Shown here piece by piece: positions 649 to 51,019 of a stretch of DNA of 64,000 bases. Both the position numbers and the translations under genes were made by a program. The notes beneath the pieces were generated by a model. That model saw only the letters and a program-made list of their open reading frames with translations, was not told the DNA's origin and searched no databases. Source of the DNA: Methanothermobacter sp. MT-2 (GTDB lineage: Archaea; Methanobacteriota; Methanobacteria; Methanobacteriales; DSM-23052). Each line of letters begins with the position of its first letter. Position 1 is the stretch's first letter. The DNA lies in NCBI GenBank assembly GCA_003584625.1, contig AP017647.1, positions 311,501-375,500 on the forward strand, read 5' to 3'.

Positions 649-675
649 TAAAAAAAATAAAAGATGGTGATATTC

Positions 676-1341: not shown

Positions 1342-1345
1342 TCAT

Positions 1346-1627: not shown

Positions 1628-1638
1628 AAGTGAGGAAA

Positions 1639-2406: not shown

Positions 2407-2456
2407 AAAAAACTTTTTTTTAGCAGATTAATATAAGATACTAATCAACTCATACA
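2407..2456 (+). terminator. T-run between cbiQ and cbiO
   Basis: An A-run followed by nine T (2414-2422) stands directly after the cbiQ stop, then an A+T-rich stretch (taatataag, about 2429-2437) that could serve as a weak internal promoter. This would allow partial termination and a separate level of cbiO-ribC expression. Confidence 0.4.
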
Positions 2457-2468
2457 ATGGTGTGGACA

Positions 2469-3769
<1,301 letters not shown>

Positions 3770-14256: not shown

Positions 14257-17200
14257 TTAGAGTTTTCCATATCCTTTTAGGAAGTATCCGGCGCCTATGA
14301 GGACCACGATACCTACGACCCCTAAAAGTGCGTAGAATGGCATTTGACTCCCTGAACCTCCCGTTTGGGATGCTGAAACCTCAAATACCTTCCCTTGCCC
14401 GGCACTTGAGCCGCCTGATGATCCAGCCACTCCTGCTGTGGCTGCTCCAACTCCTGTTCCTGGTGTTGCGCTGGGTTGACTTCCCATTCTTAGGGTGCCG
14501 GTGTAACCCGGGGTTGAACCAGGTTCCACTGGAGCACTCGAAGTTCCGGACTGTCCCGGGACGCCAGGAACACTTGAAGTCCCTGGAATCACGATTCTAG
14601 CCCCAGTAGTGGCTGTGAATACACCCGCAAATTTTTGGAGGGTCGCAGAATCCAGTGATGAAACGCTAACAAGCCACTGGTTAAATACAATGTTGCTACA
14701 AGTGTGGTGGCAACAAGCAACACCATACTGGTTTGCAATTCCTATGTACTTGTCTACAAGGTTTGTTACCAAACCACTGTCACTTGGAGTCCATATACCA
14801 CGCCTATTGGCTTCAAGCACCCATCCAATCATTGACTCTGTTGCAAAGGCCCCATAGGATCCTGGAGCGCCGAATCTTGGTGTTAGAAGGTTTTCAGCCA
14901 TCTGAGTCCATAACTGTTCACTTATAGAATTGCTGGTCACCGCTATTGCAAATGCATTCTTGTACCTTGAAGCATATTCCATCCAACCACTCGGAGAGCC
15001 GAGAAGGGAATCCATGTACCTTGGATTAAGGAGCTGAGACCTTATCTCCAATTCAATTTCCTCTTTAATGTCTCTTGTAGCGATATTGTTCTTGTTCCTT
15101 ATATCAACAAGTGAAGTGTCTGGGTTGCCACCCAATTGCCTTGAAGCCAATAACATTCCACCAAACCAGTCATAATAGTCATCTGTGTCAAGCAAACGCC
15201 AAGTACTGTCAAGATTCTGCGTCATGAGATCCATGTTTTTAAGTAGATACTGAAAAGTCCCTTTATTCTGCTGTATACTGATGCCAGTGGCCGTTGATTT
15301 CCAAGCATATGAAACCCTGGAAAGATAAACATCGACAAGTTCACTTGTCAGCTCCCATTTTGAAGTGCTAGGTAGAAGATCTGAAACCCCAGTACCTTCG
15401 AGTACAAGACCCCTTAAACCAAATATTCTGTCAAGGGACCCGCACTCCATATAATGTTCTTTAACATGGTTCAAGGTGTCGTTAGCCGATGCTGCGAGTT
15501 CAACAGCTCTATTCATCAGGTCTATCCATCCCTGGTATCCTGTGACAGCAGTTACAAAAACATCAACACGGGGTCTTTGCACTTCCACACCATCGATGAC
15601 TATTTTAAGCTGTGATGGACTCATAAGGACGGGTTCAGGGTTCACGTCACCATTAGGGTTCCATTCAGGTTTCACACCGAGCAAGTACATGAATTCTGCT
15701 ATTGCAATGGCATCTGTCCTTAATAGTTCCGTGCCCCACATGACCATCCCTATAAGTTCCGGGAACCTCCCATGTACCTTATAATAGTCTGCGAGTAGCT
15801 TATCCACGATTTTTTCAGCGGTTTCCCATGCAGCCTTTGTCGGCATCTTCTTGGGATTAGCCGCATAGAAATTAGCACCCGTTGGCAGCACATCATTCCA
15901 TGCAGGATCCCCAGCGAGTCCCGGTTCCACAAAACCTCCGCTGAGGGCATCTAGGATGTTCTGCCACTCTCTGTTGGCCCTGATCTTGTTTATTGTTTCA
16001 TTTATAAATTCTAGGTCACTGGCGTCGATCCCCTCTGGTATGATGCCATTTATTATACTCCTTATCCATTCTTTCGCTGTTTCCTTGATATTCTCGATTT
16101 CGTTCTCATATATGCTTTTAGACATTTCAGAATAGTCTATTGTGATTGAAGGATACAGTTTATTCTTCACGTTTTCGAGAAGATCTGACCTTGAAGATGC
16201 GACGGTGAAAACTTCCTCCACGAGTTCTTCGCCACTGAGAACCTTACCAAGGCTATGAAGTCCAAGGGGTATTATATCATCTTCAATTTCATGTAATTTG
16301 AGATGGAGTTCCTCCAAAGCCTCTTTAAAGTCGCCTGACATTTCAAAGCCTAACCTTGAAGCCTTTGTCTTTATTTCACTTTCAAGTTCTGGGAGTATCT
16401 GCATGTTACCAACCTTTAAAGCATTCTGGTATTGGTGTATGAGATCATGGATTTCTATAAGATCACCGTAAAGGCTGCTTTGAACCATCGCAGGGGTCAT
16501 ATGATCTATTATGAGTGCGTTGCTCCTGTCCTTTGCCACGAGTCCCTCACCAGGATTAGAGACTATATAAGGGTAAATGTTTGGCAGATTTGTGAGTTGG
16601 AATGGCCAGTCTTCTTCTGTTAATCCTATCATGCGGCCTGGGAGCCATTCAAGTGTTCCGTGGGTTCCAAGGTGGATCATTGCATTTGCACCGAAGACCT
16701 TTTCTATCCACTGGTAGAATGCTATGTACTGGTGGTGTGGCGGCAAGTATGGGTCATGGTAGTTTTGCACTTCTTCCCATCCACGGCTTGGCTGTATCCC
16801 TATGAAGATGTTCCCAAGTATGATTCCTGGGATTATTATGGTCTGGTTTACTGTCATGACATTTCCTGGCGGTTCTCCCCATTTCTCGATAACTTCTTCT
16901 CTTAGTTTCTCTGGGAGTTCCTTGAACCAGTTGAGGTATGTTTCGGTGTCTATGAGTTGCTTGTTTTCCTCTAGAAGGGATCTATGCTCTGAGAAGTATT
17001 GTTGGAGTAGGGGTTTTGCCCAGGTGCCCTTGTTGCCACATTCTACTAGTAGTGTGTATAATTCCTCTTTTGAGGGTATATCACCTGTGTTGTAACCGTT
17101 TTCCTTAAGTTTGAGGAGTAGATCGTGTAGACTTTGGAAGACGTCAAGGTAGGATGCTGTAAGCCCGTCTTTTCCAGGGGGATAATTGTAGACTATGATA

Positions 17201-18807: not shown

Positions 18808-18827
18808 ATTTAAAGTTTACTTTAAAT
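18808..18827 (-). promoter_or_regulatory. 20-bp perfect inverted repeat operator at the cobN-like gene 1 promoter
   Basis: The bases form arms of nine (ATTTAAAGT and ACTTTAAAT) around a TT centre, a perfect inverted repeat and the longest version of the AAGTNNACTT palindrome in the window. It lies about 40 bases before the start codon of the cobN-like gene and overlaps the A+T-rich promoter region. It is about 105 bases upstream of the divergent adenosine-kinase gene, so control of that gene is possible but less likely. Confidence 0.6.
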
Positions 18828-18932
18828 AAAATAAAATTAACTTGATATTAGTGTGGTTACAATGGCAAAAAGACAAAAAAAAGAGATAATAATATTTCCT
18901 CCCAAATAGATAAAATACAAAGAGGTGAAATA

Positions 18933-36021: not shown

Positions 36022-36082
36022 TTTTTTTAGTTAAATATATAAATTATAAAGGTAAATCTGAATAGATGAAAATAAAAAGGGG

Positions 36083-39000
36083 GTGAATAATATTAAAAAA
36101 TTAGGAAACAGACAAATACTGCTCCTAACAATTCTAGTAGTGTTAGCAGTCTCATTAACAGGATCAGCCTATGCAGACAATTATGTGGGCGGCAAACCCC
36201 TAGAAACGGTCCAAGAAGGTAATGTAACCGGTGACCTTGCAGTGGACTCATACTATGGATTCAATGCAACAGACCCTTATAATGTCACATACACATTCAA
36301 CTATACAATACCATCAGATGCCAAGATAAAAAACGCAACATTATACGTGCTAGTATATTCAGGCACCATGCAAGGAGCAAGACAAACATACATCAACGTA
36401 ACCTACAATGGACAATTACTAGACAACCAATCACTCTACACCACATACAACTACCCCGGAGACGGTGGAAACAATAATACGTGGCTTTTAGGCCCTGGAC
36501 ACGACGAAGACCCATACCTAATGGTAAACGACCATACAATGCGCGTAACAAGCGACTACCTACTATGGTACGATGTAACAAACATTACAAAGGAAAGCAA
36601 CTGGGCCAACGTATGCACCAAGGGCTCATACGACGGTCGAATAAAACTCATAACACTGGTTGTGGCCTACAACCTCCCAGGAAGCACAACCGGGACAAGA
36701 TACTGGATCAACCTCGGACATGATGTAAGCAGCTACAATGACGAAGAATACACAGGAGAAACATACTTCAATGGTACAGTATCCGGAACAATCAAAGATG
36801 TCACATTGATGATAGTGCATGCAGCAAGCCAAGACGGAATCTACACATACAATAACCAGAACCTGCCAAATGGCACATACCAAAGACGAGGAACATACAG
36901 CGGATACGAAATATGGAACGTCACAAACCTCTACAACAACGAAACCAACAAATTCACATACCACAAAAGCCCAGGAACAGGAGTAGAAGGAGGATACTAC
37001 AAAATCATCCTAGCAATACAAAAGGTCACTTACACATCAAATATCGACTTAAGATTCCAGAGCGTCCTCGCCCCTGGTAATACGATATTTGCACTAGAAA
37101 ACAATACAATAAAGTGCCAAATCAAAAACGTTGGCACTGAAAAATCACCACCAACAACACTACTATTATACGCCAATGACGAACTAGTCTCAAATGCAAC
37201 CATACCCTCCATAAACCCAAATAGCAACGTTTATGTGAATATAACGGATCCCACGATAAGACCAGCCACAGCAGAAACGCTCTATGGTAACAATAACCAG
37301 AACATAACCTATAAATTTGTTATAGACCCATACAATGAAGTTCCAGAAACCAATGAAACAAACAACCAATATATAAAAAATCTCCCATTACTATACAATG
37401 GCTACAAAGGCAAAAGATGGGCCTACAACGGCTCAGACATTAACACAGTAGAACTCTATGACGGCCAATACGGCATCGCATATTATGTGCAGCCTGACAC
37501 AACCTATGCAAGTGGAACCACCGGATGGTCAAATTACACCGTAACATTCAACGGCACACAACCCAACATACCAGAAAACACAACCCCAATCACAGTATAC
37601 TTGTACGTCCCATACAATTGGGATAACAAAGGCACACAACCAGAAGAAGGCGCAGCACTAACATACCTAACAATACAATTCAACCAGGCAGTATTCCAAC
37701 CAGGAAACTACACAAGATGGTACTGGGACCAAGCAAACTTCGGAGGCTACCCAAACTACAAATACGGCCTACTAGTCTACAACGTAACAGAATACTACAA
37801 CAAAAACCAAGACAACACTGTGAATGTCACATTATCAGTACCAGCAAGCCAGACTACACACACACTTAGCATGTACCCATTCACACTACTAGTAATCTAC
37901 AATGACAATACAGCGCCAAGAAGACAAATATTCATCGCAGAAGAATCCGACGTCCTACTCCTAGGAGATTCAACATATGGAACAAACCTCAACGAAACAA
38001 TAGCATACACCAAATTCAACGGAACAGAAATAAACTTAGAAGATGTTGCAAACGCCACATATCATACATGGGCAGGCAATGCCGGACCAAACGAAGGAAA
38101 CGTATACTTTAATGGCGAAACTTTAGGATTGAATGTATGGCAAGGAAACAGCAAAACAGCATACCCAGAAGTATTCAATGTCACAGGAAAACTCCAACCA
38201 AATAATAACATAGCAGCCATACAAGGAACAGACTCCGGCGGCATGCTAGCACTACTACAAATCCTAGTAGTAGAATATGAACCACCAATAGCCAATTTCA
38301 CAGCCAACACTACAATTGGAGTCCTCCCATTAACAGTACAATTCCAGGACTTGTCAACAGGAGCCACAGAATGGCTCTGGGAATTCGGTGACGGTACAAA
38401 TAGCACAGAACAAAACCCAACCCACACCTACACACAACCAGGAACATACACCATAACACTCACAGTAAAAGGTCCAGGAGGACAAGACACACTAACAAAA
38501 CAAGACTACATAACAGCCGCGAGAGTCATGAACTTAAACACTAATGAAACCTTCAATAAAATCCAGGATGCCATAAACGATAATGACACAGTGAATGGCC
38601 ACACGATACTGGTAGGAGAGGGCAACTACACAGAAAACATAAACTTAAATAAATCTCTAGTATTGAAGGCTAATGGTCTCGTGACCATCATTGCAAATAA
38701 CACAGGAAACAATGTTATCAATATAGCTGCAAATGATACCCAGATTGAAGGTTTCACAGTTACCGGGGCCACTGGTAGCGGTGCAGCAGGCATACTAATC
38801 AACGGTTATGATAGATGCACACTACTCAACAATACGGTCATCAACAACTACTATGGTATTAGGCTCACAAATGCAGAAGCTTGCACGCTTCGTAACAACA
38901 GCATATGGAATAACACGCGCAACTTCGGAGTATTCCAGAAATTTGTGGAGGATATCGACACGAGCAACACAATCAACGGAAAACCAATATACTACCTAAT

Positions 39001-42000
39001 GAACATCCAAGATTTAACTTTGAGTGAAGATGCAGGATTCATCGGCCTAGTGAACACAACAAATGTCACAATAGATGGCATCAGCATTTCAAATTCACAA
39101 CAGGGCATACTACTAGTCAATGCAACCAACTGCCACATCGAAAACATGACCTTAACACAGAATAGATTCGGCGCATACATCTACAATTGTAGCATGATAA
39201 CAATCAAGGATAGCACGATAACAGACACTGACTATTACGCTATACTGTTCCTTCAACCAACCACTGGTAACACAATAGAAAACAATACTATAAGGAACTG
39301 TACTTACGCTATATCCTTCTACAACGGCGTGACAAATAGCACGATACAATACAACAACGTGGAAGGCAGTAGTGATGGTATAGACGCATATGGTGATGGT
39401 AACAATACAATAGCATACAATAACATCATCGCTGGCGGATTAATCGTATATGGCGCGAACAACATCGTAACAAATAACATAGTAAAGCCAGGCACGCCCA
39501 GATCAGTCATATACGTCTCTGGAAACAATAACCTCATAGCCAATAATACAGTCTACCTGCCGGTGGATAAAAGCGGAATCCGCGTTGAAGGTGGAGGAAA
39601 CAATACAATAATAGCCAACACAGTAATAGGGACAAACAAACAAGGACAAGGTATCGTGCCACTAAATGGCGACATAATACAAGACAACATAGTAACAAAC
39701 TGCAACTATGGAATATGGCCATTCAACGCCAAAAACTGCACGATAATAAGAAACAATGTCACAGGATGCAATTATGGAATCTATGTGACGAGTGGAGGCA
39801 ACCATACTTTTATAGACAACATAATCAAAGAAAACACAAAAGGTATCAGATTAACAGGCACTGGTATCGGGGCCAGTACAGGGAACTTATTATACGTTAA
39901 TTACTTCATCAACAATACAAACCAGACAGAAGGAGATGCAAGTAATAACAATTGGAACACGACAGAAGGTGGTAATTACTGGTCAGATTACACAGGAGAC
40001 GATCTTAACGGGGATGGTATAGGTGACGTGCCATATCAAGGAGATCAGAAACCATTAATCGTCGACTTAATGATTGAAGATCTTCATGTAATTGGTAATA
40101 GCGTACAAGTAAGGGTTAAAAATAATGGAAAAGCAGATATAACCAGAATAGACCCTACTGTGACATTCCCAGTCAAAATAGCCTACGATACTCAAGAATA
40201 CCTGCACTATATAGATCCATTACCAGCCGGAGGATCACAAACAATCACACAAAATATCACTATCAGCCCGGGAAGCCACACAATCACCGTAAACATCCTA
40301 TACAATGAAACAACACACTACCTCCAAGACACTAGTATAAGGGACGCTAACATCAACAATAACATTGCAAATATAACATTAACAAGGGACCTTAAAGTCA
40401 CCAATATAACCTACAACCCAAGTAATGCGGCCGGACACCGCGAACTATTCGCCAACGAACCCAACACGATCAGAGTAACAGTATTTAATGAAGGAAACCT
40501 TGATGCGGGCCAATTCAAAGTGAAGCTCATAATAGGAGAATATAATAGTACAAAGATAATAGCAGGCTTGGCTGCAAATTCAACAGTCAACGTAACTTTT
40601 GATGATTTCACACCAACACTAACAGGACCCATAACTATTAGTGTCATAGTTGACAGTGATGATGAAATCGAAGAAAACAATGAAACAAATAACATCTATG
40701 AGACAACAGGAACAGTCTACTACAACGGATACAAAGGCAAAAGATACACCGCAGGAGACGACATAAACACAATACTACTTCTAGAAGGTAAACTTGGACT
40801 AATTTATTCAACTGGCAATTCAACATATCGTGGCAGCGGATCAAGCAACTGGCAAACACCATACACCGTCACATGGACCCCAACAAACCTGCCAATACCA
40901 GAAGGAGCCACAATAAAAGAAGCCAGACTATATCAGCCATACACATGGAACACCGCACTTGGCATCCCAGACTTCACAGCAACATTCAACGGAGAAACCA
41001 TAAACCCAACAGCACACTACAACGACACCAAAGGCTACGGAACAAGCAACTACCCAAGCGGACTACTAGTATACAATGTAACAGGCTTATTCAGGGCAAA
41101 TGAAAACAACACCCTAGTACTTACAGCAGGCGCCAACACAACAACAGCACTCTACGGATCATACCTCCTAATAATCTACGAACACGAAAACGAAACCACC
41201 AAGACAATCATGATAAACGAAGAAGCAGACATGCTCTACAGCAGAACAGACTACGGCGTAAACAACACAGAAGCAACAGCATACGCAAACTTCAGCAACA
41301 TAAACTCCAATATAGTAAAAAACGCCACAACAATAATCATAATGGCCTCAGCAAACGAAGCCAACAAAAGCAAATTCTACTTCAACAACCAAGAATACAC
41401 AGGATTCTGGCAAGACTACCTATCAGGACCTCAGATAGGATTCAGCACCTACAACATAAAAGAAGCCCTACAAAACGGGACAAACACGGCAAGAATACAA
41501 AGCTACAACAACGGAAGCAACGGAGACAACGTGGTAGCCCTAGGAAGCATCCTAATCCTAGAATATGAACCACCAATAGCCAATTTCACAGCCAACCCAA
41601 CAAGTGGAGTCGCCCCATTAACAGTACAATTCCAGGACTTGTCAACAGGAGCCACAGAATGGCTCTGGGAATTCGGTGACGGTACAAATAGCACAGAACA
41701 AAACCCAACCCACACCTACACACAACCAGGAACATACAACATAACACTCACAATAAAAGGCCCAGGAGGACAAAACACACTAACAAAACAAGACTACATA
41801 ACAGCCTACAAAGGCCCCGAATTCATCCTACAAAACTTTACTGTAGCGCCAACTTCTGGTGTTGCACCATTAAACGTGACAGCTTCTTGCACACTAACAA
41901 ATACTGGTGATGTTGCAGGAGACTACACAGCAGAACTCAAAATAGACGGTATAGTTGTGGCGAATCAGACGGTCACGGTAGGTGCTGGAGAAACCAAGAC

Positions 42001-42742
42001 AGTAACATTCACGAGGACACTAGAAGCCGGAACATACAACATAACAATAGATGGGCTGGCACCGGTGAATGTGAATGTGACTCCAGCTGGTGTTAGTTTA
42101 GGTGATCTTGTTTCAGCTGCGAATACGGTTAAGGCGTATTATGAGCGTTATGGTAGGCTTCCAAGTCGAGTGGTGATCGCTGGCCAGAATTATACAATGT
42201 CTCAACTGTTATACTTGCTTACAAAGGCTACAGTTAATATAAACATGGGTAATTTGAATCCGATTGCTCCGAGGGCTGTTGGAGCTCCAACTGCACCGGG
42301 TGGAAGTTACAGGCATGGCAGACTTTACAAACCGGAATATGTGCAGGTTGCAGCGAACATCTTATCATTCATTAACCGTTATGGCAGAGCACCCAATTAT
42401 GCCAGCACAAGCCTTGGCAGAATACCATTCCAACGCCTAGTCTACATGTACACTAAGATCATAGCATTCTATGGAACAAACCACAGACTACCAAATTACG
42501 TCACAGCTGTTGGAGCTCCAACTGCACCGGGTGGAAGTTACAGGCATGGCAGACTTTACAAACCGGAATATGTGCAGGTTGCAGCGAACATTCTATCATT
42601 CATTAACCGTTATGGCAGAGCACCCAATTATGCCAGCACAAGCCTTGGCAGAATACCATTCCAACGCCTAGTCTACATGTACACTAAGATCATAGCATTC
42701 TATGGAACAAACCACAGACTACCAAATTACGTCACAATATAA
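36083..42742 (+). CDS. Giant pseudomurein-bound surface protein (DUF3344, CARDB, PKD, beta-helix, PMBR)
   Basis: About 2,219 residues with a signal peptide (ILLLTILVVLAVSLTGSAYA). Domains in order are a DUF3344-type N-terminal domain (about 30-315, homologous to the start of the following CobN-like protein), CARDB (about 320-430), a second DUF3344-like unit (about 440-730), PKD (about 735-810, WEFGDGT) and a NosD-type right-handed beta-helix (about 820-1320). Another CARDB, a DUF3344-like unit and a second PKD nearly identical to the first follow, then an adhesion-like beta domain and pseudomurein-binding repeats (about 2010-2219), the last two in near-identical tandem. It is extracellular and bound to the cell wall by the PMBRs. 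Translation may start at GTG 36083, but GGGGGTGA overlaps it, and ATT 36092 is an alternative. Confidence 0.85.
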   Translation: MNNIKKLGNRQILLLTILVVLAVSLTGSAYADNYVGGKPLETVQEGNVTGDLAVDSYYGFNATDPYNVTYTFNYTIPSDAKIKNATLYVLVYSGTMQGARQTYINVTYNGQLLDNQSLYTTYNYPGDGGNNNTWLLGPGHDEDPYLMVNDHTMRVTSDYLLWYDVTNITKESNWANVCTKGSYDGRIKLITLVVAYNLPGSTTGTRYWINLGHDVSSYNDEEYTGETYFNGTVSGTIKDVTLMIVHAASQDGIYTYNNQNLPNGTYQRRGTYSGYEIWNVTNLYNNETNKFTYHKSPGTGVEGGYYKIILAIQKVTYTSNIDLRFQSVLAPGNTIFALENNTIKCQIKNVGTEKSPPTTLLLYANDELVSNATIPSINPNSNVYVNITDPTIRPATAETLYGNNNQNITYKFVIDPYNEVPETNETNNQYIKNLPLLYNGYKGKRWAYNGSDINTVELYDGQYGIAYYVQPDTTYASGTTGWSNYTVTFNGTQPNIPENTTPITVYLYVPYNWDNKGTQPEEGAALTYLTIQFNQAVFQPGNYTRWYWDQANFGGYPNYKYGLLVYNVTEYYNKNQDNTVNVTLSVPASQTTHTLSMYPFTLLVIYNDNTAPRRQIFIAEESDVLLLGDSTYGTNLNETIAYTKFNGTEINLEDVANATYHTWAGNAGPNEGNVYFNGETLGLNVWQGNSKTAYPEVFNVTGKLQPNNNIAAIQGTDSGGMLALLQILVVEYEPPIANFTANTTIGVLPLTVQFQDLSTGATEWLWEFGDGTNSTEQNPTHTYTQPGTYTITLTVKGPGGQDTLTKQDYITAARVMNLNTNETFNKIQDAINDNDTVNGHTILVGEGNYTENINLNKSLVLKANGLVTIIANNTGNNVINIAANDTQIEGFTVTGATGSGAAGILINGYDRCTLLNNTVINNYYGIRLTNAEACTLRNNSIWNNTRNFGVFQKFVEDIDTSNTINGKPIYYLMNIQDLTLSEDAGFIGLVNTTNVTIDGISISNSQQGILLVNATNCHIENMTLTQNRFGAYIYNCSMITIKDSTITDTDYYAILFLQPTTGNTIENNTIRNCTYAISFYNGVTNSTIQYNNVEGSSDGIDAYGDGNNTIAYNNIIAGGLIVYGANNIVTNNIVKPGTPRSVIYVSGNNNLIANNTVYLPVDKSGIRVEGGGNNTIIANTVIGTNKQGQGIVPLNGDIIQDNIVTNCNYGIWPFNAKNCTIIRNNVTGCNYGIYVTSGGNHTFIDNIIKENTKGIRLTGTGIGASTGNLLYVNYFINNTNQTEGDASNNNWNTTEGGNYWSDYTGDDLNGDGIGDVPYQGDQKPLIVDLMIEDLHVIGNSVQVRVKNNGKADITRIDPTVTFPVKIAYDTQEYLHYIDPLPAGGSQTITQNITISPGSHTITVNILYNETTHYLQDTSIRDANINNNIANITLTRDLKVTNITYNPSNAAGHRELFANEPNTIRVTVFNEGNLDAGQFKVKLIIGEYNSTKIIAGLAANSTVNVTFDDFTPTLTGPITISVIVDSDDEIEENNETNNIYETTGTVYYNGYKGKRYTAGDDINTILLLEGKLGLIYSTGNSTYRGSGSSNWQTPYTVTWTPTNLPIPEGATIKEARLYQPYTWNTALGIPDFTATFNGETINPTAHYNDTKGYGTSNYPSGLLVYNVTGLFRANENNTLVLTAGANTTTALYGSYLLIIYEHENETTKTIMINEEADMLYSRTDYGVNNTEATAYANFSNINSNIVKNATTIIIMASANEANKSKFYFNNQEYTGFWQDYLSGPQIGFSTYNIKEALQNGTNTARIQSYNNGSNGDNVVALGSILILEYEPPIANFTANPTSGVAPLTVQFQDLSTGATEWLWEFGDGTNSTEQNPTHTYTQPGTYNITLTIKGPGGQNTLTKQDYITAYKGPEFILQNFTVAPTSGVAPLNVTASCTLTNTGDVAGDYTAELKIDGIVVANQTVTVGAGETKTVTFTRTLEAGTYNITIDGLAPVNVNVTPAGVSLGDLVSAANTVKAYYERYGRLPSRVVIAGQNYTMSQLLYLLTKATVNINMGNLNPIAPRAVGAPTAPGGSYRHGRLYKPEYVQVAANILSFINRYGRAPNYASTSLGRIPFQRLVYMYTKIIAFYGTNHRLPNYVTAVGAPTAPGGSYRHGRLYKPEYVQVAANILSFINRYGRAPNYASTSLGRIPFQRLVYMYTKIIAFYGTNHRLPNYVTI
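38274..38515 (+). repeat. PKD-coding repeat, copy 1
   Basis: About 240 bases coding for a PKD domain are nearly identical to 41561-41806 in the same gene, including synonymous positions. That level of identity suggests recent duplication or gene conversion, not conserved function alone. Confidence 0.7.
41561..41806 (+). repeat. PKD-coding repeat, copy 2
   Basis: This segment matches 38274-38515. Differences cluster at the start (TTIGVLP against PTSGVAP) and near the end of the domain. Confidence 0.7.
42275..42505 (+). repeat. Pseudomurein-binding repeat unit, copy 1 of a 231-bp tandem
   Basis: This is a 77-residue unit starting AVGAPTAPGGSYRHGRLY and ending HRLPNYVT. The next 231 bases repeat it with only one or two substitutions (near 42361 and 42592). 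Confidence 0.85.
42506..42736 (+). repeat. Pseudomurein-binding repeat unit, copy 2 of a 231-bp tandem
   Basis: This near-identical second unit of the tandem ends two codons before the stop. The copy number may vary between strains by slippage or unequal recombination. Confidence 0.85.
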
Positions 42743-42772
42743 ATTTTTTATTTTTAAATTTTTTTTATTTAG
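42743..42772 (+). terminator. T-rich partial terminator between the surface protein and the CobN-like gene
   Basis: Several T-runs (six, five and eight T) fill the 36-base gap. They may end part of the transcripts from the surface protein gene, leaving lower expression of the downstream CobN-like gene. No separate strong TATA box is visible in the gap. Confidence 0.4.
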
Positions 42773-42787
42773 AAGAGGGTGAGAGGT

Positions 42788-45700
42788 ATGAAAAAGATTC
42801 AAAAGCTGGTGGGTGTTATCCTCCTAATGGTGGTATTATTCACGTTAATTTCTTCATCATATGCCGATCCATACTGTGGAGGCCTAGAACTTAAAACAAT
42901 CAACAATGGGACTGTGAGTGGAGGTCTCTACAGTGACAGTTACCTTGGCACCAATGGACCGGCAAACTATAGCATGAATGACAAACCTGGCAATTCTAGC
43001 GTAGTATATACTTTTAGGGATTTGCCCAGTAATGCCAATGTTGCATGGGCACAACTTTACGTGCTCGTATACCAGGGTCATATGCTGAATGATTATCCGC
43101 TCAACGTGAACATCACATATAATGGTCAACTCTTAGAGAGCACACGCTTATCCTCACAGTATACTTTTCCTCAAGAAGATGAGGAAGCTCCACAATACCT
43201 TCAGATAAATGATCATATAGTGCGGGTTACAAGTGACTACCTTCTATGGTATGATGTGACCAATATTACAGGTACTAGGAATTGGGCTAATGTAACAACC
43301 TACAATTGCATTACAGATGGCCGCATAAAATTAATAACATTAGTGGCGGCTTATAACATCCCTGGAAGTAATAATACGGTTGCTTATTGGGTTAACATGG
43401 GCCATGATGTGGATACTTATTATTATGGGGGAGATTATGTTGGCGAAACAATTTTCAAGTCGAGTATTGCAGGTGACATAGAAGATGCTACTCTCACTGT
43501 CGTCCATGCTGCAAGTATTGATGGTCAATATACATTCAATGATAGAAGATTGAGCGGGAACCAATTAACTGGAAGTTATAGCGGCCTGAACAAGTGGAAT
43601 GTGACTAAAGTATTTGATCTTATGGGTGTGAATAGGTTAACATATGATCGTGTTGGCAATTTTTACAAGATAATCTTAGCTCTCTTGGAGGTCAAGTACA
43701 AGCCGCCTATAATCGCGAAACCTGACTTATGGATAACCTCAAATATTAAAGGGACATTTTTAAAGGACTTAGCATATAATATAAGCGCATTTGTCGGGAA
43801 TGGAGGTAACCTAGATGTTTCTGGGGTTAGGGTTGACTTCTTAGATAATGGTATGAGCGTGGATAGTCATATTATCCCAGAGATTAGGAGTGGGGAGACT
43901 GTAGAGATTAACTTTAATTGGACTCCAACAACAGCAGGCGCACATACACTACAACTAATCATAGACCCTCAAAATCAAATAGAAGAAATCAACGAGACAA
44001 ACAACAAGTTTACATTGTCTTTGACGGTAGACCAGCCACACCCTGACGTCATATTCAAAGGCATTGACTTGGCAGCTGATCTCATAGCCAATGAAACATA
44101 CACACTCATGGCGCGAATATCAAATGTTGGTCCAGTAGATGCAGGTCAGGTCAGGGTTGATTTTTATGATAATGGTGTGAAGCTTGGCACTCAGATTATC
44201 CCAGTACTCGCTGGTGGCGAGACAACTACAATAGGATTTACTTGGACTCCAACAACAGCAGGCGCACATACACTACAACTAATCATAGACCCGGAAAACA
44301 AGATACAAGAACTCAACGAGACAAACAATGAATATAACAGGTCATGTACTGTTAAAAAGAGTGGTAATATCCTAGTCTTCATTGTAAGTGATGAGGGACA
44401 ATCAATGGTCATTAATCAGGCAGCCCATGATGCAAACGTCCTAGGATATGCTCCTATAAGAGAGAAGGTCCAGATACAGATCAGAAGTTGCGATCAGTTA
44501 ACTAAAATGTCAGATGATGAACTCTTGAACCTTCTAGCAGGTTGTGACATATTCATAGGAGAATATCTCAGTGACACTGCATCTTCACATCTACAACGTC
44601 TACTTTCAGCGCACCCCGAAATAACAAAAAAAACCAGTGGCATGTTCCTTATATTAGAACCGGCAATAGTCTATAATCCAGCATACACAAGCTTGATGAA
44701 ATACTCAAATATTAAGGGAGAATATATTCTCTCTAATGTTTCAGATGAGCTTCTAATCGACTACTATCAGAACACGACGAAAGGCACCAACTTCGAAACA
44801 GTACTAAATACAACATCTTGTGATATCCCTATAGAATATAATATGGCAGTACTCTACAAGGATATCAATAATAAGCAAGCATTCGTAAACCAGATTGTCT
44901 GGGCTCTCAACCTTATAGGTGTTCCTAATAGTGGCTATTGGAAACCTCCAACATGGGCAACCAGTGGCGAAAAACCCTATGGCATATACCGTTATGGCTG
45001 GTATGAAAATCTTACAGAATATGCGAATAAATATTTCAAAGCAAACGCCATAGGTTGTATAGGACTTCTCGAAAGCAAAATGTACGTGGACAGCCAGAAA
45101 CTACAACCATACTATGCTATCATTGATGCACTAGAAGCTAGGGGATTCAATGTCATACCAGTAGTAGCATATGGGGCCACACCAGAACAATTAAGGGTTA
45201 TGGTAGAATCATTCACAGATGCTCCTAGCGTTGAAAGCTTCTTCGCAGATCCATCCAAATATAAAGTATATGTTGATGCCATAGTGAGCATGCCAGCCTA
45301 TGGACTAGGCGGCGACTTCTTTACAAACGTGACTAAATTCTTTGAATTCATAAATGTACCCGTATTCAAAGCATTACACTCTGATTATCTTCTTCCAGAA
45401 CAATGGGAGCTCAGCACCCTAGGACTAAGGCAACTTACAGGTGACAGATGGTGGCACATAGCCATCTCAGAAACCCAGGGGATCATAGACCCTACTATAG
45501 TGGCCACGAATTCCAACCCTATTACAGATCCGGACACAGGATTATCATATAGTCTCTATAAAATAATACCAGCGAATATCGAGCATCTCGCCGATACAAT
45601 AAAAGGATGGGTTAAACTGAAAAACTTGGGGAACAATGAAAAGAAAGTGGCTTTAATATACTATAATTATCCTCCAGGAAAAGATAACATCGGCTCAAGC

Positions 45701-48700
45701 TACCTTGATGTTATAACAAGCATCTACAACCTTCTTAACATTTTCCAGAGAGAAGGCTATGCTATTGATGGCATACCAGCCAATACAACAATCCTCCATG
45801 ATATGATAATCCAGAGGGGTGTTAATGTCGCGCCATGGGCTCCTGGGGAACTTGAAAGGCTTGTGAAAAACGGCGCCATCCTCTATCCCGTCGACAAGTA
45901 CATGGAATGGTTCTCCAGACTAGATAATATTACAAAAGTTCAGGTCATCGAGGGGCCAGTAGGCTATATCGGAGAATTATGCAAAAGAGCGATAGAATTG
46001 AATTATACAAGTGGAATGGAAAACCGCATAGACTCCTGGTACGATGGTATAATATCATTATTGCCAGAAAATAGGACAAGTGTAGCGACACCACTCCTAG
46101 ACAAGATAGTGGCCTCTCTAAAAAATTATATCCTAACAGGAAACTCCAAGTATTATAATGAATTCTTAGAATATAAGAAACAATTTTTTGCACTTAATAT
46201 TAGTGGCTTATCTGGTTGGGGCGAACCACCAGGAAACATTATGACAACAGAAAAGAATGGTACAAAATATTTTGTAATCCCAGGGATTTGGTTTGGTAAC
46301 ATGTTCATTTGCCCAGAACCACAACGTGGATGGGAAGGCGATATTAACAAACTTTATCATAGCATGGTGGTGGCTCCACCACACCAGTACCTTGCAGTTT
46401 ATGCTTACTTGCAAGAAAATGTGGATGCCATGGTTCATCTTGGAAGACACGCCACTTACGAGTGGCTGCCAGGGAAAGAGGTTCTATTAGCATCCTATGA
46501 TTTCCCTGAAGTCGTGACTGGGGCCACACCCCAAGTCTATTATTATATAGTTGATGGACTCGCAGAGGGTATCCAGGCTAAGAGAAGAGGTTCGGCTGTT
46601 ATAATAGACCATTTAACACCACCATTAACATTCACGGCATTATATGGTGGATATGCCTCACTAGCAGCCTTGGTGGGTCAATATGATGGTGCTGATGAAC
46701 TAACAAAGGCTGAAATAATCGATAAGATAAGGAAAACAATAGCAGATAATAATCTCACAACACTCATAGAAATGGCAATGGGCGTCTCACTTAACAAAAT
46801 AGATGGGGATAAACTAGTGGAAACAATAGAAGATTACCTTGAATTAACTCAGGATACATTGTATCCCCATGGTTTACATGCTATTGGCAAGAATTGGACA
46901 GAAGATGAAGTGGCAATGTTAGTCTCATCAATACTCTCAGTACCATTCCAGGTTTCCGCCACAGAAGAGACAACATTACAAGATGAAGTGGCCCTACTAT
47001 TCTATGGAAGATCCTATGGAAACCTTACAAGCATGCAAAAGGAGAAAGTGCAAGAGAAGTGCATCGAAACAGTGAAAAGCATCATTAACAATGGCTTAAA
47101 CGCGACACTCAACAATTTAACTAACAGGCCAACAACCAGTTTAAAAGTGGCATTGGAGTTAGCCCAGGAATATGTGATGAAGGTGTATGAGAGCATAGAT
47201 GCTGAGATAGAAAGTCTATTAGATGCTTTGAATTGTGGTTATATTCCTCCTGGGGCTGGTAACGATCCAGTGAACAACCCTGATGCCCTGCCAACTGGCA
47301 GGAATTTTTTCCAGGATCAGGCTGCTGAGATACCTACAAAAAGTTCGTTTGAGTATGGTAAGACCCTGGCATTACTGGCACTTGAAAACTTTAATGATAC
47401 CATGGAAAAAATGGCTGTTGGCATATTCTGCACCGAGACTGCACGTGATGATGCCGCACTAGTATCAATGGTACTAGCATTGCTTGGAATGGAACCTGAC
47501 TGGTCTGATTCTCCAAGTGCTGGTGTGGGAGGTGCTAAACTTAAAGAGATGCCGAAGTATGTGGAACTCGGAGACTTGGTGCGTCCAGAGGGTTGGGAGA
47601 AAAAGAGAATCGATGTTGTAATTATAACAACTGGTCTTTTCAGGGATCTTTACAGTAGACAAGCTGGATTGCTTGATAAAGCATTTAGAGTAGCTCTTGC
47701 AAGGTCTTATTATACTATCCTTGACAACCAGACACTTAAACAAAAATATGGTGAGAAGATAGAAAAAGCCTTGGATTATGTTCTAGGACCAGTTGGATTC
47801 TATGGTGTTGGTGACGAATCATTAGATTGTAATTTTGTGGCTAAACATTGGGTTGAGGACTTTGGATATTACATGTCACTTAATATGACACCAGAGATCG
47901 CTGGGGAGTATGCGATTTCAAGGATATTCGCCCCGCCAGAGAACGATTATGGGGCTGGAATTTCAAAGAGTATACAGTTGAGTTGGACATGGGAAGACAG
48001 GATGCAACTTGCAGACTTCTACCTTAATAGGATGGGTAACATATATTCAAGTAACTATTGGGGGGCGTCCAATCCATTAGTCTTCAAAAGAGCGCTTAGC
48101 GGTGTTGGAACGGTATACACGAGTAGAAACACTAACTTGTATGGCGTATTGGACAATGATGACTTCCTTGATTATTGGGGTGGACTTTCACTCGCCGTAG
48201 AAAGAGTGAATGGCCGTGCACCAACAATGTATGTTTTAAGTTATGGTAACAGGGCCACTCCCAAGGCATTGACAATTGAAAGTTTCATAAGTCAGGAGGC
48301 TGCAAGCCGTTATTTCAATCCTGAGTGGATTAAGGGTATGATGCAAAGCGATCCTACTGGCAGATATATTAGTAGGAAATTTATATCTAATCTAGTGGGA
48401 TGGACAGTTACAAGATCTACTTATACGAGTGATGTGGGTTCTTCACAACAGTTTTACAGTTCGTTGTGGCAGACAACATATGATGTATATTTAAGGGATA
48501 GTTATAATATTGGGGTTACAAGTTGGCTTTCAAGTGGTAATAGGGCATATGCTATGATAAGTTCCACGGGTAATATGCTAAATGTTATCTATATGGGTTA
48601 TTGGGATACTGATGAGAATACTCTTAAGAGTATAACTAATATGTGGGCTTCGTCGATTTCACAGTATGGTGTTTCTTGTTGTGATTGTAGCTGTGGTAAT

Positions 48701-49105
48701 ATTGCTATGATACAGTGGGCTATGGGTTATGTGAATCCTAACCTTTTAAATGCGGTTAAATCAAGGATTTATGGGGCCACAGGAAATGGTATATTTGCAC
48801 CTACGGGATCTCCTGGACAGCCTGGCGCGCCTGGTACAAGTCCAGGTTACAGTGGCAATCAAGGAGAAATAGGAGGCCAGGCAGGTGCGGGTTCAGGAGC
48901 TTCTGCTGGCGTTTCGGGTGCTTCTGGGTCTGGTTCGGGTGTTGGTCAGGGTTCTGGCGCGCCTGGTGGAGTTTATGAGGTGAGTAGGGTTGGTGGGGTG
49001 TCTGGAGCAAGCTCTGGATTGCCGGTGCATGCACTTGCTGGTATAATATTCCTTGTGGTTCTTGTTGGTGTGGGATATTTCCTTGGTGGTCGTGGGAAAA
49101 TCTAA
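42788..49105 (+). CDS. Secreted, membrane-anchored CobN-like protein 2 with DUF3344 and CARDB domains
   Basis: About 2,105 residues from ATG 42788; GTG 42779 lies in the GAGGGTGA site. After a signal peptide (LVGVILLMVVLFTLISSSYA) come a DUF3344-type domain (about 25-310), two CARDB domains (about 315-525) and a CobN-like body. The body carries YYNYPPGKDNIGSSYLD, WGEPPGN, HLGRHATYEWLPGK (about 1217-1230), DALPTGRNFF and KRIDVVIITTGLFRD. A CCDCSC cluster near 1963, a Gly/Ser/Pro-rich stalk and a C-terminal membrane helix ending GGRGKI follow. The CobN signature is altered from HLGTHG to HLGRHA. It shares its N-terminal domain with the upstream pseudomurein-bound protein and its body with the 14257-18768 protein. 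A surface role in metal or tetrapyrrole capture is inferred. Confidence 0.85.
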   Translation: MKKIQKLVGVILLMVVLFTLISSSYADPYCGGLELKTINNGTVSGGLYSDSYLGTNGPANYSMNDKPGNSSVVYTFRDLPSNANVAWAQLYVLVYQGHMLNDYPLNVNITYNGQLLESTRLSSQYTFPQEDEEAPQYLQINDHIVRVTSDYLLWYDVTNITGTRNWANVTTYNCITDGRIKLITLVAAYNIPGSNNTVAYWVNMGHDVDTYYYGGDYVGETIFKSSIAGDIEDATLTVVHAASIDGQYTFNDRRLSGNQLTGSYSGLNKWNVTKVFDLMGVNRLTYDRVGNFYKIILALLEVKYKPPIIAKPDLWITSNIKGTFLKDLAYNISAFVGNGGNLDVSGVRVDFLDNGMSVDSHIIPEIRSGETVEINFNWTPTTAGAHTLQLIIDPQNQIEEINETNNKFTLSLTVDQPHPDVIFKGIDLAADLIANETYTLMARISNVGPVDAGQVRVDFYDNGVKLGTQIIPVLAGGETTTIGFTWTPTTAGAHTLQLIIDPENKIQELNETNNEYNRSCTVKKSGNILVFIVSDEGQSMVINQAAHDANVLGYAPIREKVQIQIRSCDQLTKMSDDELLNLLAGCDIFIGEYLSDTASSHLQRLLSAHPEITKKTSGMFLILEPAIVYNPAYTSLMKYSNIKGEYILSNVSDELLIDYYQNTTKGTNFETVLNTTSCDIPIEYNMAVLYKDINNKQAFVNQIVWALNLIGVPNSGYWKPPTWATSGEKPYGIYRYGWYENLTEYANKYFKANAIGCIGLLESKMYVDSQKLQPYYAIIDALEARGFNVIPVVAYGATPEQLRVMVESFTDAPSVESFFADPSKYKVYVDAIVSMPAYGLGGDFFTNVTKFFEFINVPVFKALHSDYLLPEQWELSTLGLRQLTGDRWWHIAISETQGIIDPTIVATNSNPITDPDTGLSYSLYKIIPANIEHLADTIKGWVKLKNLGNNEKKVALIYYNYPPGKDNIGSSYLDVITSIYNLLNIFQREGYAIDGIPANTTILHDMIIQRGVNVAPWAPGELERLVKNGAILYPVDKYMEWFSRLDNITKVQVIEGPVGYIGELCKRAIELNYTSGMENRIDSWYDGIISLLPENRTSVATPLLDKIVASLKNYILTGNSKYYNEFLEYKKQFFALNISGLSGWGEPPGNIMTTEKNGTKYFVIPGIWFGNMFICPEPQRGWEGDINKLYHSMVVAPPHQYLAVYAYLQENVDAMVHLGRHATYEWLPGKEVLLASYDFPEVVTGATPQVYYYIVDGLAEGIQAKRRGSAVIIDHLTPPLTFTALYGGYASLAALVGQYDGADELTKAEIIDKIRKTIADNNLTTLIEMAMGVSLNKIDGDKLVETIEDYLELTQDTLYPHGLHAIGKNWTEDEVAMLVSSILSVPFQVSATEETTLQDEVALLFYGRSYGNLTSMQKEKVQEKCIETVKSIINNGLNATLNNLTNRPTTSLKVALELAQEYVMKVYESIDAEIESLLDALNCGYIPPGAGNDPVNNPDALPTGRNFFQDQAAEIPTKSSFEYGKTLALLALENFNDTMEKMAVGIFCTETARDDAALVSMVLALLGMEPDWSDSPSAGVGGAKLKEMPKYVELGDLVRPEGWEKKRIDVVIITTGLFRDLYSRQAGLLDKAFRVALARSYYTILDNQTLKQKYGEKIEKALDYVLGPVGFYGVGDESLDCNFVAKHWVEDFGYYMSLNMTPEIAGEYAISRIFAPPENDYGAGISKSIQLSWTWEDRMQLADFYLNRMGNIYSSNYWGASNPLVFKRALSGVGTVYTSRNTNLYGVLDNDDFLDYWGGLSLAVERVNGRAPTMYVLSYGNRATPKALTIESFISQEAASRYFNPEWIKGMMQSDPTGRYISRKFISNLVGWTVTRSTYTSDVGSSQQFYSSLWQTTYDVYLRDSYNIGVTSWLSSGNRAYAMISSTGNMLNVIYMGYWDTDENTLKSITNMWASSISQYGVSCCDCSCGNIAMIQWAMGYVNPNLLNAVKSRIYGATGNGIFAPTGSPGQPGAPGTSPGYSGNQGEIGGQAGAGSGASAGVSGASGSGSGVGQGSGAPGGVYEVSRVGGVSGASSGLPVHALAGIIFLVVLVGVGYFLGGRGKI
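43919..43967 (+). repeat. CARDB-coding exact repeat, copy 1
   Basis: About 49 bases from TGGACTCCAACAACAGCAGG onward are identical to 44244-44292 in the second CARDB domain, although the rest of the two domains has diverged. This is a signature of local gene conversion. Confidence 0.7.
44244..44292 (+). repeat. CARDB-coding exact repeat, copy 2
   Basis: This is the second copy of the 49-base identical segment. It encodes the same WTPTTAGAHTLQLIIDP stretch. Confidence 0.7.
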
Positions 49106-49119
49106 ACCATTTATTCTTT

Positions 49120-49135
49120 TTTTGGATATTTAGTT
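49120..49135 (+). terminator. T-run after CobN-like gene 2
   Basis: A seven-T run (49127-49133) follows the stop by about 20 bases. It separates the CobN-like gene from the DUF2162 operon, which has its own promoter. Confidence 0.4.
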
Positions 49136-49183
49136 TTATGGGTGCTTTTTTTGTGTTTGGAATTTCCACAAAAAAAATATATT

Positions 49184-49216
49184 AAAGTATATTTTAGTTT
49201 ATATAAAGTATACTTA
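49184..49216 (+). promoter_or_regulatory. DUF2162-ExbB-DUF2149 operon promoter with AAGTATACTT operator
   Basis: The TATA-like TTTATATAAA (49198-49207) overlaps a perfect palindrome AAGTATACTT (49206-49215). An imperfect copy, AAGTATATTT, sits 21 bp upstream at 49185-49194. This is the third promoter in the window with the AAGTNNACTT palindrome. Confidence 0.55.
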
Positions 49217-49223
49217 AAAAGTG

Positions 49224-49262
49224 TTATTACTGAAAGGGCCTGATCAAACCCTATAGTAATAA
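49224..49262 (+). promoter_or_regulatory. Two-part hairpin in the leader of the DUF2162 operon
   Basis: TTATTACT (49224-49231) pairs perfectly with AGTAATAA (49255-49262), and AGGG (49235-49238) with CCCT (49249-49252) inside it, enclosing a ten-base loop. The AGTAATA arm equals the half-site of the palindromes upstream of the surface protein gene. The element could therefore act as DNA operator or as RNA structure. An A+T dyad (CTTATATA and TATATAAG, 49268-49291) follows. Confidence 0.4.
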
Positions 49263-49313
49263 TACATCTTATATATTAAATATTATATAAGAATAAATTT
49301 GAAAGGTGAAAAC

Positions 49314-50024
49314 ATGAATCTTGCAAACATCCTATGGGAAGCAGGAATACTATCAGTCATCCTACTATTCGGTGTTAAAATAGGATTAGCAATGGGACTC
49401 GCAGGATTATCCCGAAAAAAAGCAGCAATTATAATCATAGCCTACTCAGCAGGCATACTAGGACTTTCAGCCCTCGCAAACCCTTACATGGAAACACTAC
49501 ACCACTACTTCACAGAATACGCATCCCTAATGACAATAATAATGGCAGCAATACTAATAATAGCAGGAGCCTACACCATCAAAGAATGGAAACAACACCA
49601 AAAAAACACAGCCACAACAACCTGCCTAGCAATGATAGCACCATGCCCATGCTGCTTCGGAGCCGTAACCCTCAGCATAATACTAATAGCACCAATAATA
49701 GGCGCATCAGCACTCACAATAGGAAAATACGCCGCCATCCTACTAGGAATATTCATAGGCATATTCTACCTCACATCAAAAACCATAGCAAAAATCTCCA
49801 AAAAACCCCACCCAATCCTACTAGGCAACTTCATGCTATTCGCTGGCCTATACTTCCTAGCATCAGCCATAGTACTACCAAACATAAACAGCGTACTAGC
49901 CACAAAAATGAGTCCAATCACAATCCCAGACCCACAAACACTAACATACGCCATAATAGGCGCCATACTCCTCATAGGATTAGGAATCATAACAAACAGG
50001 AAAAACAGCACACTAATAAAATAA
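49314..50024 (+). CDS. DUF2162 membrane protein (putative transporter)
   Basis: A protein of about 236 residues with six to seven membrane helices, matching the DUF2162 family of predicted archaeal transporters. A cysteine motif, CPCCFGA, lies in the fourth helix region (about residue 105) and may bind metal or heme-like ligands. ATG 49314 follows AAGGTGA; a TTG at 49299 is in frame but precedes the site. It is the first gene of an operon with ExbB-like and DUF2149 proteins directly downstream of the second CobN-like gene. From memory, this neighbourhood recurs in methanogens; I could not check that here. Confidence 0.8.
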   Translation: MNLANILWEAGILSVILLFGVKIGLAMGLAGLSRKKAAIIIIAYSAGILGLSALANPYMETLHHYFTEYASLMTIIMAAILIIAGAYTIKEWKQHQKNTATTTCLAMIAPCPCCFGAVTLSIILIAPIIGASALTIGKYAAILLGIFIGIFYLTSKTIAKISKKPHPILLGNFMLFAGLYFLASAIVLPNINSVLATKMSPITIPDPQTLTYAIIGAILLIGLGIITNRKNSTLIK

Positions 50025-50043
50025 AATTTTGAGGTGATAAACC

Positions 50044-50721
50044 ATGGTCGCAGTACCAGGCAGCGAAATACTAAGCGCAGCCCTACACGTAGTCTCCCAA
50101 AGCCTACTAATACCAGTCATAGTAGGACTACTACTATTCATGGCCTACGCCATAATATCACTAGGCGGCCTGCTCTCAGAATACTCAAACAGGATAAAAA
50201 TAGAAGTAAACGAGATAAAAAATGCAATATTCTCCATGACAAACCCTGGAAACCCAGAAAAGATAAAAGAAACAATAAAACCCTTAAACATACCAGAAAG
50301 CCAAAAAAAGATACTCCTAGAACTTGCGAAAACAACAAACCTAACCCCAAAAACAAGAGAAGCCCTCGCAAGAAAACTCATAGAAGCAGAAGAACTAAAA
50401 ATCGCAAAAAGCCTAGAAAAAACAGACATAATAACAAGACTAGGACCCACACTAGGACTCATGGGAACACTCATACCCATGGGCCCAGGACTAGCAGCCC
50501 TTGGAGCAGGAGACATACAAACACTAGCACAGGCAATAATAGTAGCCTTCGACACCACAGTCGTAGGACTCGCAGCCGGGGGCATAGCCTATGTCATATC
50601 AAAAATAAGAAGAAGATGGTACGAAGAATACCTCTCCAACCTCGAAGCACTATCCGAGACAATAATAGAGGTGATGAAAGATGTTGCGCCGACGGCGGAG
50701 GCTGCTTGGAAATCAAAATGA
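50044..50721 (+). CDS. exbB: MotA/TolQ/ExbB family proton-channel protein
   Basis: A protein of 225 residues. One N-terminal helix (about 20-45, [24 protein letters not shown]) precedes a long cytoplasmic helical section, then the two-helix TolQ/ExbB signature [26 protein letters not shown] and [16 protein letters not shown]. Such proteins use ion flow to move a partner that crosses to the outside. The DUF2149 partner gene overlaps its end by 41 bases. A GAGGTGAT site precedes the ATG. Confidence 0.88.
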
Positions 50722-51019
50722 AGAAGACCCCATGGCAGGCTCAGCCAACATAGTAGATGCAATGCTAGTACTCGCAGTAGGCTTCCTAATATTCATAACC
50801 ATATCATGGAACATGCAAAGCGTCGTATTTTCTAACATGTCACCAGAAGAACGCCAAGCAGCCATGGAAGCCATAAAACAAGTAGTTGAAATACAACAAG
50901 GACAAGAACTCAACACCACACCAGAAACCGTATCAGGGTCTGGTTCAAGTATGGTGCAACTAGGCACAGTATACAAAGACCCCAAAACAGGCAAACTTAT
51001 CATGGTACAAGGAACTTAA
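50681..51019 (+). CDS. DUF2149 protein (ExbD/TolR-like partner)
   Basis: A 112-residue protein with a basic N-terminus ([10 protein letters not shown]), the family segment [25 protein letters not shown] containing the conserved Asp near the start of the single membrane helix, and an extracytoplasmic C-terminal region. This is ExbD/TolR topology with an acidic residue placed for ion coupling. It overlaps the ExbB-like gene and has a GAGGTGAT site inside it. I infer a two-part ion-driven motor serving the adjacent CobN-like or DUF2162 proteins. Confidence 0.85.

Follow-up and report, generated by a model that had tools for sequence, protein, structure and literature searches.

HmuS is a membrane-bound CobN homolog of Bacteroidota that takes iron out of heme (PMC12583661), and its topology is membrane anchored and extracytoplasmic (PMC13227078). 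The BtuS/HmuS proteins as a whole are periplasmic relatives of CobN with a membrane anchor, and their genes accompany those of the very ExbB and DUF2149 families that concern us here (PMC12583661, PMC6460266, PMC13227078). As related in PMC6460266, Rodionov et al. proposed in 2003 that BtuS was a third CobN-type family, for metalloporphyrin salvage; genetic work in B. fragilis (PMC6460266) and biochemical work on the protein as HmuS (PMC12583661, PMC13227078) have since demonstrated its function. The 2025 HmuS paper described archaea as being without complete hmu operons and the use of archaeal HmuS homologs as unclear (PMC12583661). Here we analyze a gene cluster in a 64,000-nucleotide stretch (the window; G000:C1:311501-375500) of a 1.52-Mb single-contig archaeal genome. 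The cluster encodes a secreted CobN-like protein (CobN2) with DUF2162, ExbB-like, and DUF2149 proteins, and a second such protein (CobN1) is encoded elsewhere in the window. With modest confidence, we favor the explanation that the cluster specifies an archaeal ion-gradient-coupled, HmuS-like extracytoplasmic complex that would free nickel or cobalt bound in tetrapyrroles or in chelates of other kinds. The genes and domains concerned are as follows.

36083..42742, plus strand: giant secreted surface protein, 2219 residues (Pfam, signal peptide)
42779..49105, plus strand: CobN2, secreted CobN-like protein with a C-terminal membrane anchor, 2108 residues (Pfam, hydropathy)
42872..43696, plus strand: DUF3344 domain of CobN2, residues 32-306 (Pfam)
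46211..48625, plus strand: C-terminal part of the chelatase domain of CobN2, residues 1145-1949 (Pfam, alignment)
49299..50024, plus strand: DUF2162 polytopic protein with APCPCC (Pfam, 2e-69)
50044..50721, plus strand: ExbB/HmuU-like ion-channel subunit (MotA/TolQ/ExbB Pfam, 1.6e-11)
50681..51019, plus strand: DUF2149/HmuV protein with a single transmembrane (TM) segment (Pfam, 2.6e-20)
14257..18768, minus strand: CobN1, second secreted, membrane-anchored CobN-like protein, 1503 residues (Pfam CobN, 6.8e-231)

All five cluster genes were found where a preliminary description of this DNA had placed them, and analysis of open reading frames (ORFs) and Pfam domains recovered the domains it had named. 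The first protein, which it had called a pseudomurein-bound giant, contains three stretches of DUF3344, CARDB, PKD, and NosD/beta-helix domains, and five C-terminal pseudomurein-binding repeats. CobN2, described as a secreted, membrane-anchored CobN sharing DUF3344, combines that domain with two CARDB domains and CobN/Mg-chelatase (1.6e-219), and hydropathy gave both CobN2 and CobN1 an N-terminal hydrophobic signal or anchor and a C-terminal TM helix. The DUF2162 protein is polytopic and carries the reported CPCC, and the ExbB-like and DUF2149 genes do overlap, by 41 bp. The view that the CobN-like proteins are extracytoplasmic and not ordinary cobaltochelatases also stands, on these terminal segments and on the missed equivalog cut-offs given below. 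The accompanying premise that CobN-type large subunits are known only as cytoplasmic proteins does not, as BtuS/HmuS proteins are extracytoplasmic (PMC12583661, PMC6460266, PMC13227078).

The likeness to the hmu operon extends to gene order. The locus of Bacteroides faecis (L011) runs hmuS-hmuT-hmuU-hmuV, the last two genes sharing 4 bp, and we found that HmuV is a DUF2149 protein (3.3e-34) and HmuU an ExbB protein (2e-9). In profile-profile comparison with hhalign, HmuU matched the archaeal ExbB at 99.9% probability (E=1e-35, 35% identity), and HmuV matched archaeal DUF2149 at E=5e-10. DUF2162 occupies the HmuT slot, and its homology to HmuT was rejected when profile comparison gave no similarity; a fair model of HmuT, made with an alignment, yielded no PDB fold match at E<=0.001. 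Because the archaeal ExbB matches HmuU, DUF2149 is HmuV, and HmuT is unrelated to DUF2162, the archaeal set is the inner-membrane half of the hmu operon, DUF2162 standing in the place of HmuT. A monoderm archaeon would not be expected to have an outer-membrane receptor. Among the neighboring genes examined, no HmuY/HmuR hemophore or TonB receptor was seen, no search having been aimed at them, and the open-licence literature yielded no link of DUF2162 or DUF2149 with CobN in archaea.

The CobN-like proteins themselves showed a mixed residue pattern. The best solved-structure match of CobN2 was the heme dechelatase HmuS (9d26; 1.3e-92), and the best PDB match of CobN1 was ChlH (4.3e-109). His538, which is required for HmuS activity (PMC12583661), aligned with a His in both window proteins (HLGRHA in CobN2 and HLGTHG in CobN1), the remaining motif positions varying. 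At the position of HmuS His1209, both have Asp, as in CobN (DNDDFLDYWGG in CobN2 and TDDYYDWFGG in CobN1), and neither contains the HmuS motif LSLDHxxEFMGG (His1209/Glu1212). The alignment also showed no Met79 or His254 of heme site 1, in a region that aligns weakly, and no Met-rich insertion (at most 6 Met per 100 residues versus 15); the insertion is likewise absent from other hmu-type proteins (P. canoris, Aureibacter). With Asp in place of His1209 and with Met79, His254, and the insertion absent, these CobN-like proteins are not HmuS. Both end in a Cys motif, CCDCSC after the chelatase domain in CobN2 and CCHHTC in CobN1. Such a C-terminal CxxxxC (CCHHTC, CCDCSC, CSGFVC) occurs in nearly all extracytoplasmic forms, the archaeal ones and HmuS alike, and is missing from cytoplasmic CobN/BchH; the exceptions are P. 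canoris, Azospirillum, Comamonadaceae, a B. finegoldii plasmid copy, and G086.

Scores and a first tree set both proteins apart from the cytoplasmic enzymes. Against the NCBIfam CobN equivalogs, the window proteins scored 680 and 522 bits (cut-off, 1619) and 412 and 462 bits (cut-off, 822), and against the ChlH/BchH equivalog they scored 448 and 508 bits (cut-off, 829). Neither the cytoplasmic location of CobN nor its partnership with CobS/CobT or ChlI/ChlD was found for them, ChlI-like AAA matches lying elsewhere in the genome, away from the cluster. In this first tree, six cytoplasmic proteins formed one clan (ultrafast bootstrap [UFBoot] 88), and CobN1, CobN2, and HmuS formed clades at 100 each; when bacterial sister loci were added, CobN2, HmuS, and bacterial CobN proteins linked to ExbB-DUF2149 came together at 95. 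The cytoplasmic proteins formed no single group in the rooted drawing of this enlarged tree. The source genome, which is expected to use the anaerobic B12 route, also encodes a cytoplasmic CobN-like protein (G000:C1:453138-456176; L052). This protein falls with BchH (UFBoot 98), has the His motif TDLDHYYEFLGG intact, and differs from CobN1 and CobN2 in its active-site residues. Its gene adjoins one for an ATPase of the energy-coupling factor (ECF) type, with a ChlI-like AAA match a few kilobases away.

The association of these genes is widely conserved. Among 96 Methanobacteriota genomes, DUF2149 was present in 89, DUF2162 in 88, and CobN in 84, and six of the seven genomes lacking DUF2149 also lacked CobN (Fisher p=6.6e-6, relatedness ignored). 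DUF2149 lay within 2 kb of at least 95 of the 101 strong DUF2162 matches listed (median gap, 744 bp, with room for an ExbB gene), and a CobN match lay within 3.5 kb of DUF2162 in at least 36 genomes. The full CobN-DUF2162-ExbB-DUF2149 set was found in the genus of the source genome, in the Methanothermobacter-like family, and in Methanobacteriaceae. This clustering bears out the suggested genetic tie between the CobN-like proteins and an ExbB/ExbD-like motor. The giant, put forward as part of the same system, was rejected as an essential part, since it is not conserved across families: the upstream surface protein varies by lineage, being the DUF3344 giant here, a protein with FmdE and HID domains in Methanothermobacter, and others elsewhere. 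The Methanothermobacter protein in this slot (L100:14980-17874) has FmdE domains and a weak match to the HID domain of the heme-binding protein Shr. Downstream, a HisA-like gene (window positions 51030-51716) follows the DUF2149 gene, an adjacency kept across several families (L076, L078, L081-L084, L090, and L091).

The ExbB/DUF2149 pair has the makeup of a stator, a MotA/TolQ/ExbB domain protein with a one-TM partner bearing a conserved Asp. Every archaeal DUF2149 protein in the set has the motif N-x-x-D-x-M (Asp26) in its TM segment, and the bacterial ones all share its N and D; this Asp may carry ions, as the corresponding residue of ExbD/MotB does, although a profile search of DUF2149 against solved ExbD/MotB gave no match. 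Cytoplasmic CobN and ChlH are powered by AAA+ ATPases. Outside the membrane ATP is absent, and ExbB has no TonB system to power in a monoderm archaeon. On the simplest reading, ExbB/DUF2149 would relay the ion gradient to the CobN-like protein through its membrane anchorage. On the explanation that we favor, the anchored protein would bind a metal tetrapyrrole or other metal chelate on the wall side and release the metal, probably nickel and/or cobalt, with ExbB/DUF2149 as the ion-gradient stator that drives or resets it instead of the ATP-driven CobST/ChlID. The freed metal could then be taken up by DUF2162, whose CPCC lies in a membrane helix, or by the co-regulated CbiMNQO. The preliminary description's idea that cargo may be loaded or released for either of these is thus a reasonable hypothesis.

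Which metal is involved is suggested by the company that these genes keep. The HX4DH motif is the signature of NiCoT permeases. In Runella slithyformis, ExbB-DUF2149-CobN lies inside hypABF...hypCDE, and the permease in the HmuT slot carries this signature as HAFEADH, with weak NicO and DsbD_2 matches. In Azospirillum brasilense, CobN-ExbB-DUF2149 lies near a TonB receptor gene and nikR. In Trichlorobacter lovleyi, the order TonB receptor-DUF2162-ExbB-DUF2149-CobN-ExbB-ExbD-TonB occurs in a cobalamin locus, and the presence of a separate canonical ExbB-ExbD-TonB alongside argues that ExbB-DUF2149 is not the TonB energizer. A tblastn search for DUF2162 on plasmids gave no match, which we attribute to sensitivity, because Pfam later found a clear DUF2162 beside the ExbB match of T. 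lovleyi. We take genome G088 to be M. marburgensis, whose cobN1 is c09040 and in which, by gene order, c10540 is DUF2162, c10530 is ExbB, and c10520 is DUF2149. The "transporter MTBMA_c10530," CobN1, and NikR1 rise under nickel limitation in M. marburgensis (PMC12350162), and MTBMA_c10530 is likely the counterpart of the ExbB of our cluster. Taken together, the four independent contexts (M. marburgensis, Runella, Azospirillum, and T. lovleyi) point to nickel or cobalt. Methanoperedens plasmids have also been reported to encode DUF3344 proteins close to CbiMNQO and NikR (PMC9674854).

A shared palindrome links these genes further.

18809-18826, minus strand: palindrome TTTAAAGTTTACTTTAAA, cobN1 operator, with a degenerate second copy 21 bp off at 18830-18847 (element 18809..18847)
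635..652, plus strand: palindrome ATTCAAGTTTACTTTAAA, just upstream of cbiM, a similar position being kept in related genera
664..3311, plus strand: cbiMNQO cobalt/nickel ECF uptake genes (CbiM confirmed by profile at 664-1341; N, Q, and O by gene order)
49181..49219, plus strand: tandem palindromes ATTAAAGTATATTTTAGT and TATAAAGTATACTTAAAA, 21 bp apart, before the DUF2162 operon

The preliminary description had noticed the palindrome common to cobN1 and cbiMNQO and had missed the copies before DUF2162. Membership of a Co/Ni-type regulon is supported. Sites of the form TTTAAAGTWWACTTTAAA in the genome precede cobN1, cbiM, DUF2162, and a decayed cobN. The latter, a secreted cobN in pieces with in-frame stops, keeps a tandem operator upstream, and a separate 223-residue CobN C-terminal fragment carries the motif DVDHNFEFLGG (for the two, G000:C1:750890-754353 and 739529-739933; L044, L053). 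Pairs spaced by exactly 21 bp occurred 10 times in 596 kb of loci, and no other spacing between 12 and 45 bp was seen more than 4 times, the loci having been picked around secreted cobN- and DUF2162-type genes, so that the control is the comparison of spacings and not an unbiased genome scan. All 10 pairs, which come from several genera, lay directly upstream of DUF2162 or of a secreted cobN, whether whole or decayed. A single site lay at -26/-29 or -39 from cbiM in nine of the ten loci tested, that of the window included. Position and spacing mark the palindrome as a real operator. In Methanothermobacter, the site preceding the DUF2162 operon is weak or missing, and nickel induction there may for this reason use another signal.

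Candidate regulators did not fit. NikR was rejected as the binder, as no listed site lies near either nikR, and the XRE-cupin gene (13540-14178) was rejected as a dedicated regulator, as it does not adjoin cobN1 in relatives. The promoter region of the giant and CobN2 has a different perfect palindrome, GAGTATTAGTAATACTC (35956-35972), with a half-copy at 36008-36022; AGTATTANTAATACT was weak as the mark of a regulon, with one perfect site genome-wide. A palindrome-like TATAAAGTTTACCTTTAA (minus strand) stands just upstream of the probable start of a gene for a secreted protein with pseudomurein-binding repeats (G000:C1:17092-18981; L045:1593-3482), a possible further regulon member.

Several observations weigh against the metal-release explanation. 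With His1209, Met79, His254, and the Met-rich insertion absent, heme is probably not what these proteins bind, and there might be no de-chelation at all. The CobN2 of G088 is broken up over three ORFs, which correspond to MTBMA_c10550-10570 of PMC3087415. The identification of MTBMA_c10530 as ExbB is by gene order. DUF2162 found no match among solved structures in a profile search, known thiol transporters included, and its single-sequence AlphaFold model was too poor to use (predicted local distance difference test, 54). Some Methanobrevibacter-like genomes without CobN have ExbB-DUF2149 after large adhesin-like surface proteins (L125-L130), which argues that the motor is not dedicated to chelatases and suggests that such pairs belong to ion-driven surface machines of other kinds in methanogens. 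Finally, the third secreted CobN gene of M. marburgensis (probably c17530; L102:1171-7495) stands directly upstream of FeoB on the same strand. It is a plausible iron counterpart, which makes iron possible for some paralogs, and because of this adjacency different paralogs may serve different metals. A response to the iron source has been reported for CobN-like BtuS proteins in M. barkeri (PMC10846266).

Some of the same evidence can be read in other ways. The CobN-like protein might bind intact corrinoids or F430-like tetrapyrroles at the wall, the motor driving their handover to a permease. We regard such cobamide capture as rather unlikely, although it would suit the CobN-type Asp (DxDDYY-like) at the position of His1209 in both window proteins, the DUF2162-bearing T. 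lovleyi version, which is set within a group of cobalamin genes and has a TonB receptor on either side, and the co-regulation with cbiMNQO. However, the CbiMNQO family imports ions and not corrinoids, the Runella and Azospirillum loci are nickel contexts, catalytic His538 is kept, and no BtuF-like partner was noted in the cluster. It is less probable again that the system is a redox machine in which a DsbD/CcdA-like DUF2162 reduces the C-terminal CxxxxC of CobN, and thereby the bound metal, ExbB/DUF2149 serving as the motor for conformational change. HmuS requires a reductant whose delivery route is not established (PMC12583661), CPCC is near-invariant in DUF2162, CxxxxC is confined to extracytoplasmic forms, and the same-slot Runella protein weakly matches DsbD_2; yet DUF2162 has no profile match to solved thiol transporters, HmuT, which fills that slot in the hmu operon, conserves no cysteines, and CxxxxC is missing from some members (P. 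canoris, Azospirillum, and G086).

Energized surface or adhesion machinery, with the chelatase domain as a mere binding module, seems very improbable: adhesin-like proteins beside ExbB-DUF2149 in CobN-less genomes and adhesin-like domains in the giant speak for it, but the chelatase region is full length with its catalytic His, nickel limitation induces the system (PMC12350162, by gene order), and the contexts are hyp, nikR, and cbi. Least credible of all is a misannotated cobalamin or F430 biosynthesis chelatase, as which such genes were once listed (CobN or Ni-chelatase candidates in PMC3087415) and which the strong Pfam CobN score would allow, given the signal peptide and C-terminal anchor, the scores far below the CobN/BchH equivalog cut-offs, and the separate cytoplasmic protein with other active-site residues that groups with BchH.

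Archaea hold the inner-membrane half of the hmu system with a swapped third protein and a Ni/Co-type context, which makes the question of archaeal HmuS homologs testable in methanogens and offers a likely identity for the unexplained nickel-limitation protein MTBMA_c10530. That a wall-only archaeon without TonB keeps ExbB/DUF2149 beside a CobN-like protein suggests that the motor serves that protein itself, a point that is also relevant to the source of power for HmuS in gut bacteria. More tentatively, and with doubt outweighing belief, we envisage a class of extracytoplasmic metal (de)chelatases driven by the ion gradient across the membrane, in which ExbB/DUF2149 acts directly on the CobN-like protein rather than on TonB, taking over from the AAA+ ATPase of the cytoplasmic relatives, and a swappable HmuT, NiCoT-like, or DUF2162 protein sets the metal, so that methanogens could recover nickel or cobalt from the F430 or corrinoids of dead cells.

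Of the known systems closest to the archaeal set, HmuS-HmuT-HmuU-HmuV, whose HmuS is of the BtuS2 family, is compared first. It shares with the archaeal set an anchored extracytoplasmic CobN-like protein, the same ExbB subfamily and DUF2149, the gene order with the U/V overlap, catalytic His538, and the C-terminal CxxxxC, whereas the archaeal side has an unrelated DUF2162 in the HmuT slot, Asp for His1209, neither Met79/His254 nor the Met-rich insertion, no outer membrane, DUF3344 and pseudomurein-wall modules, and a Ni/Co-type context and regulon. Aerobic CobN, which works with CobST, has the same fold family, HxGxHG and DSDDYY-like motifs, and Pfam CobN-Mg_chel domain, but it is cytoplasmic and ATP driven, without a TM segment or tail Cys motif, and the window proteins fall below its equivalog cut-offs. 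ChlH/BchH belongs to the same superfamily, but it is cytoplasmic, works with ChlI/ChlD, and has His at the HmuS 1209 position, and its cut-off is likewise missed. Stators of the TonB/TolQR/MotAB type (ExbB-ExbD) resemble the ExbB/DUF2149 pair in the MotA/TolQ/ExbB family and the single TM helix with an invariant Asp, but in a monoderm archaeon there is no TonB or outer membrane for such a stator to serve.

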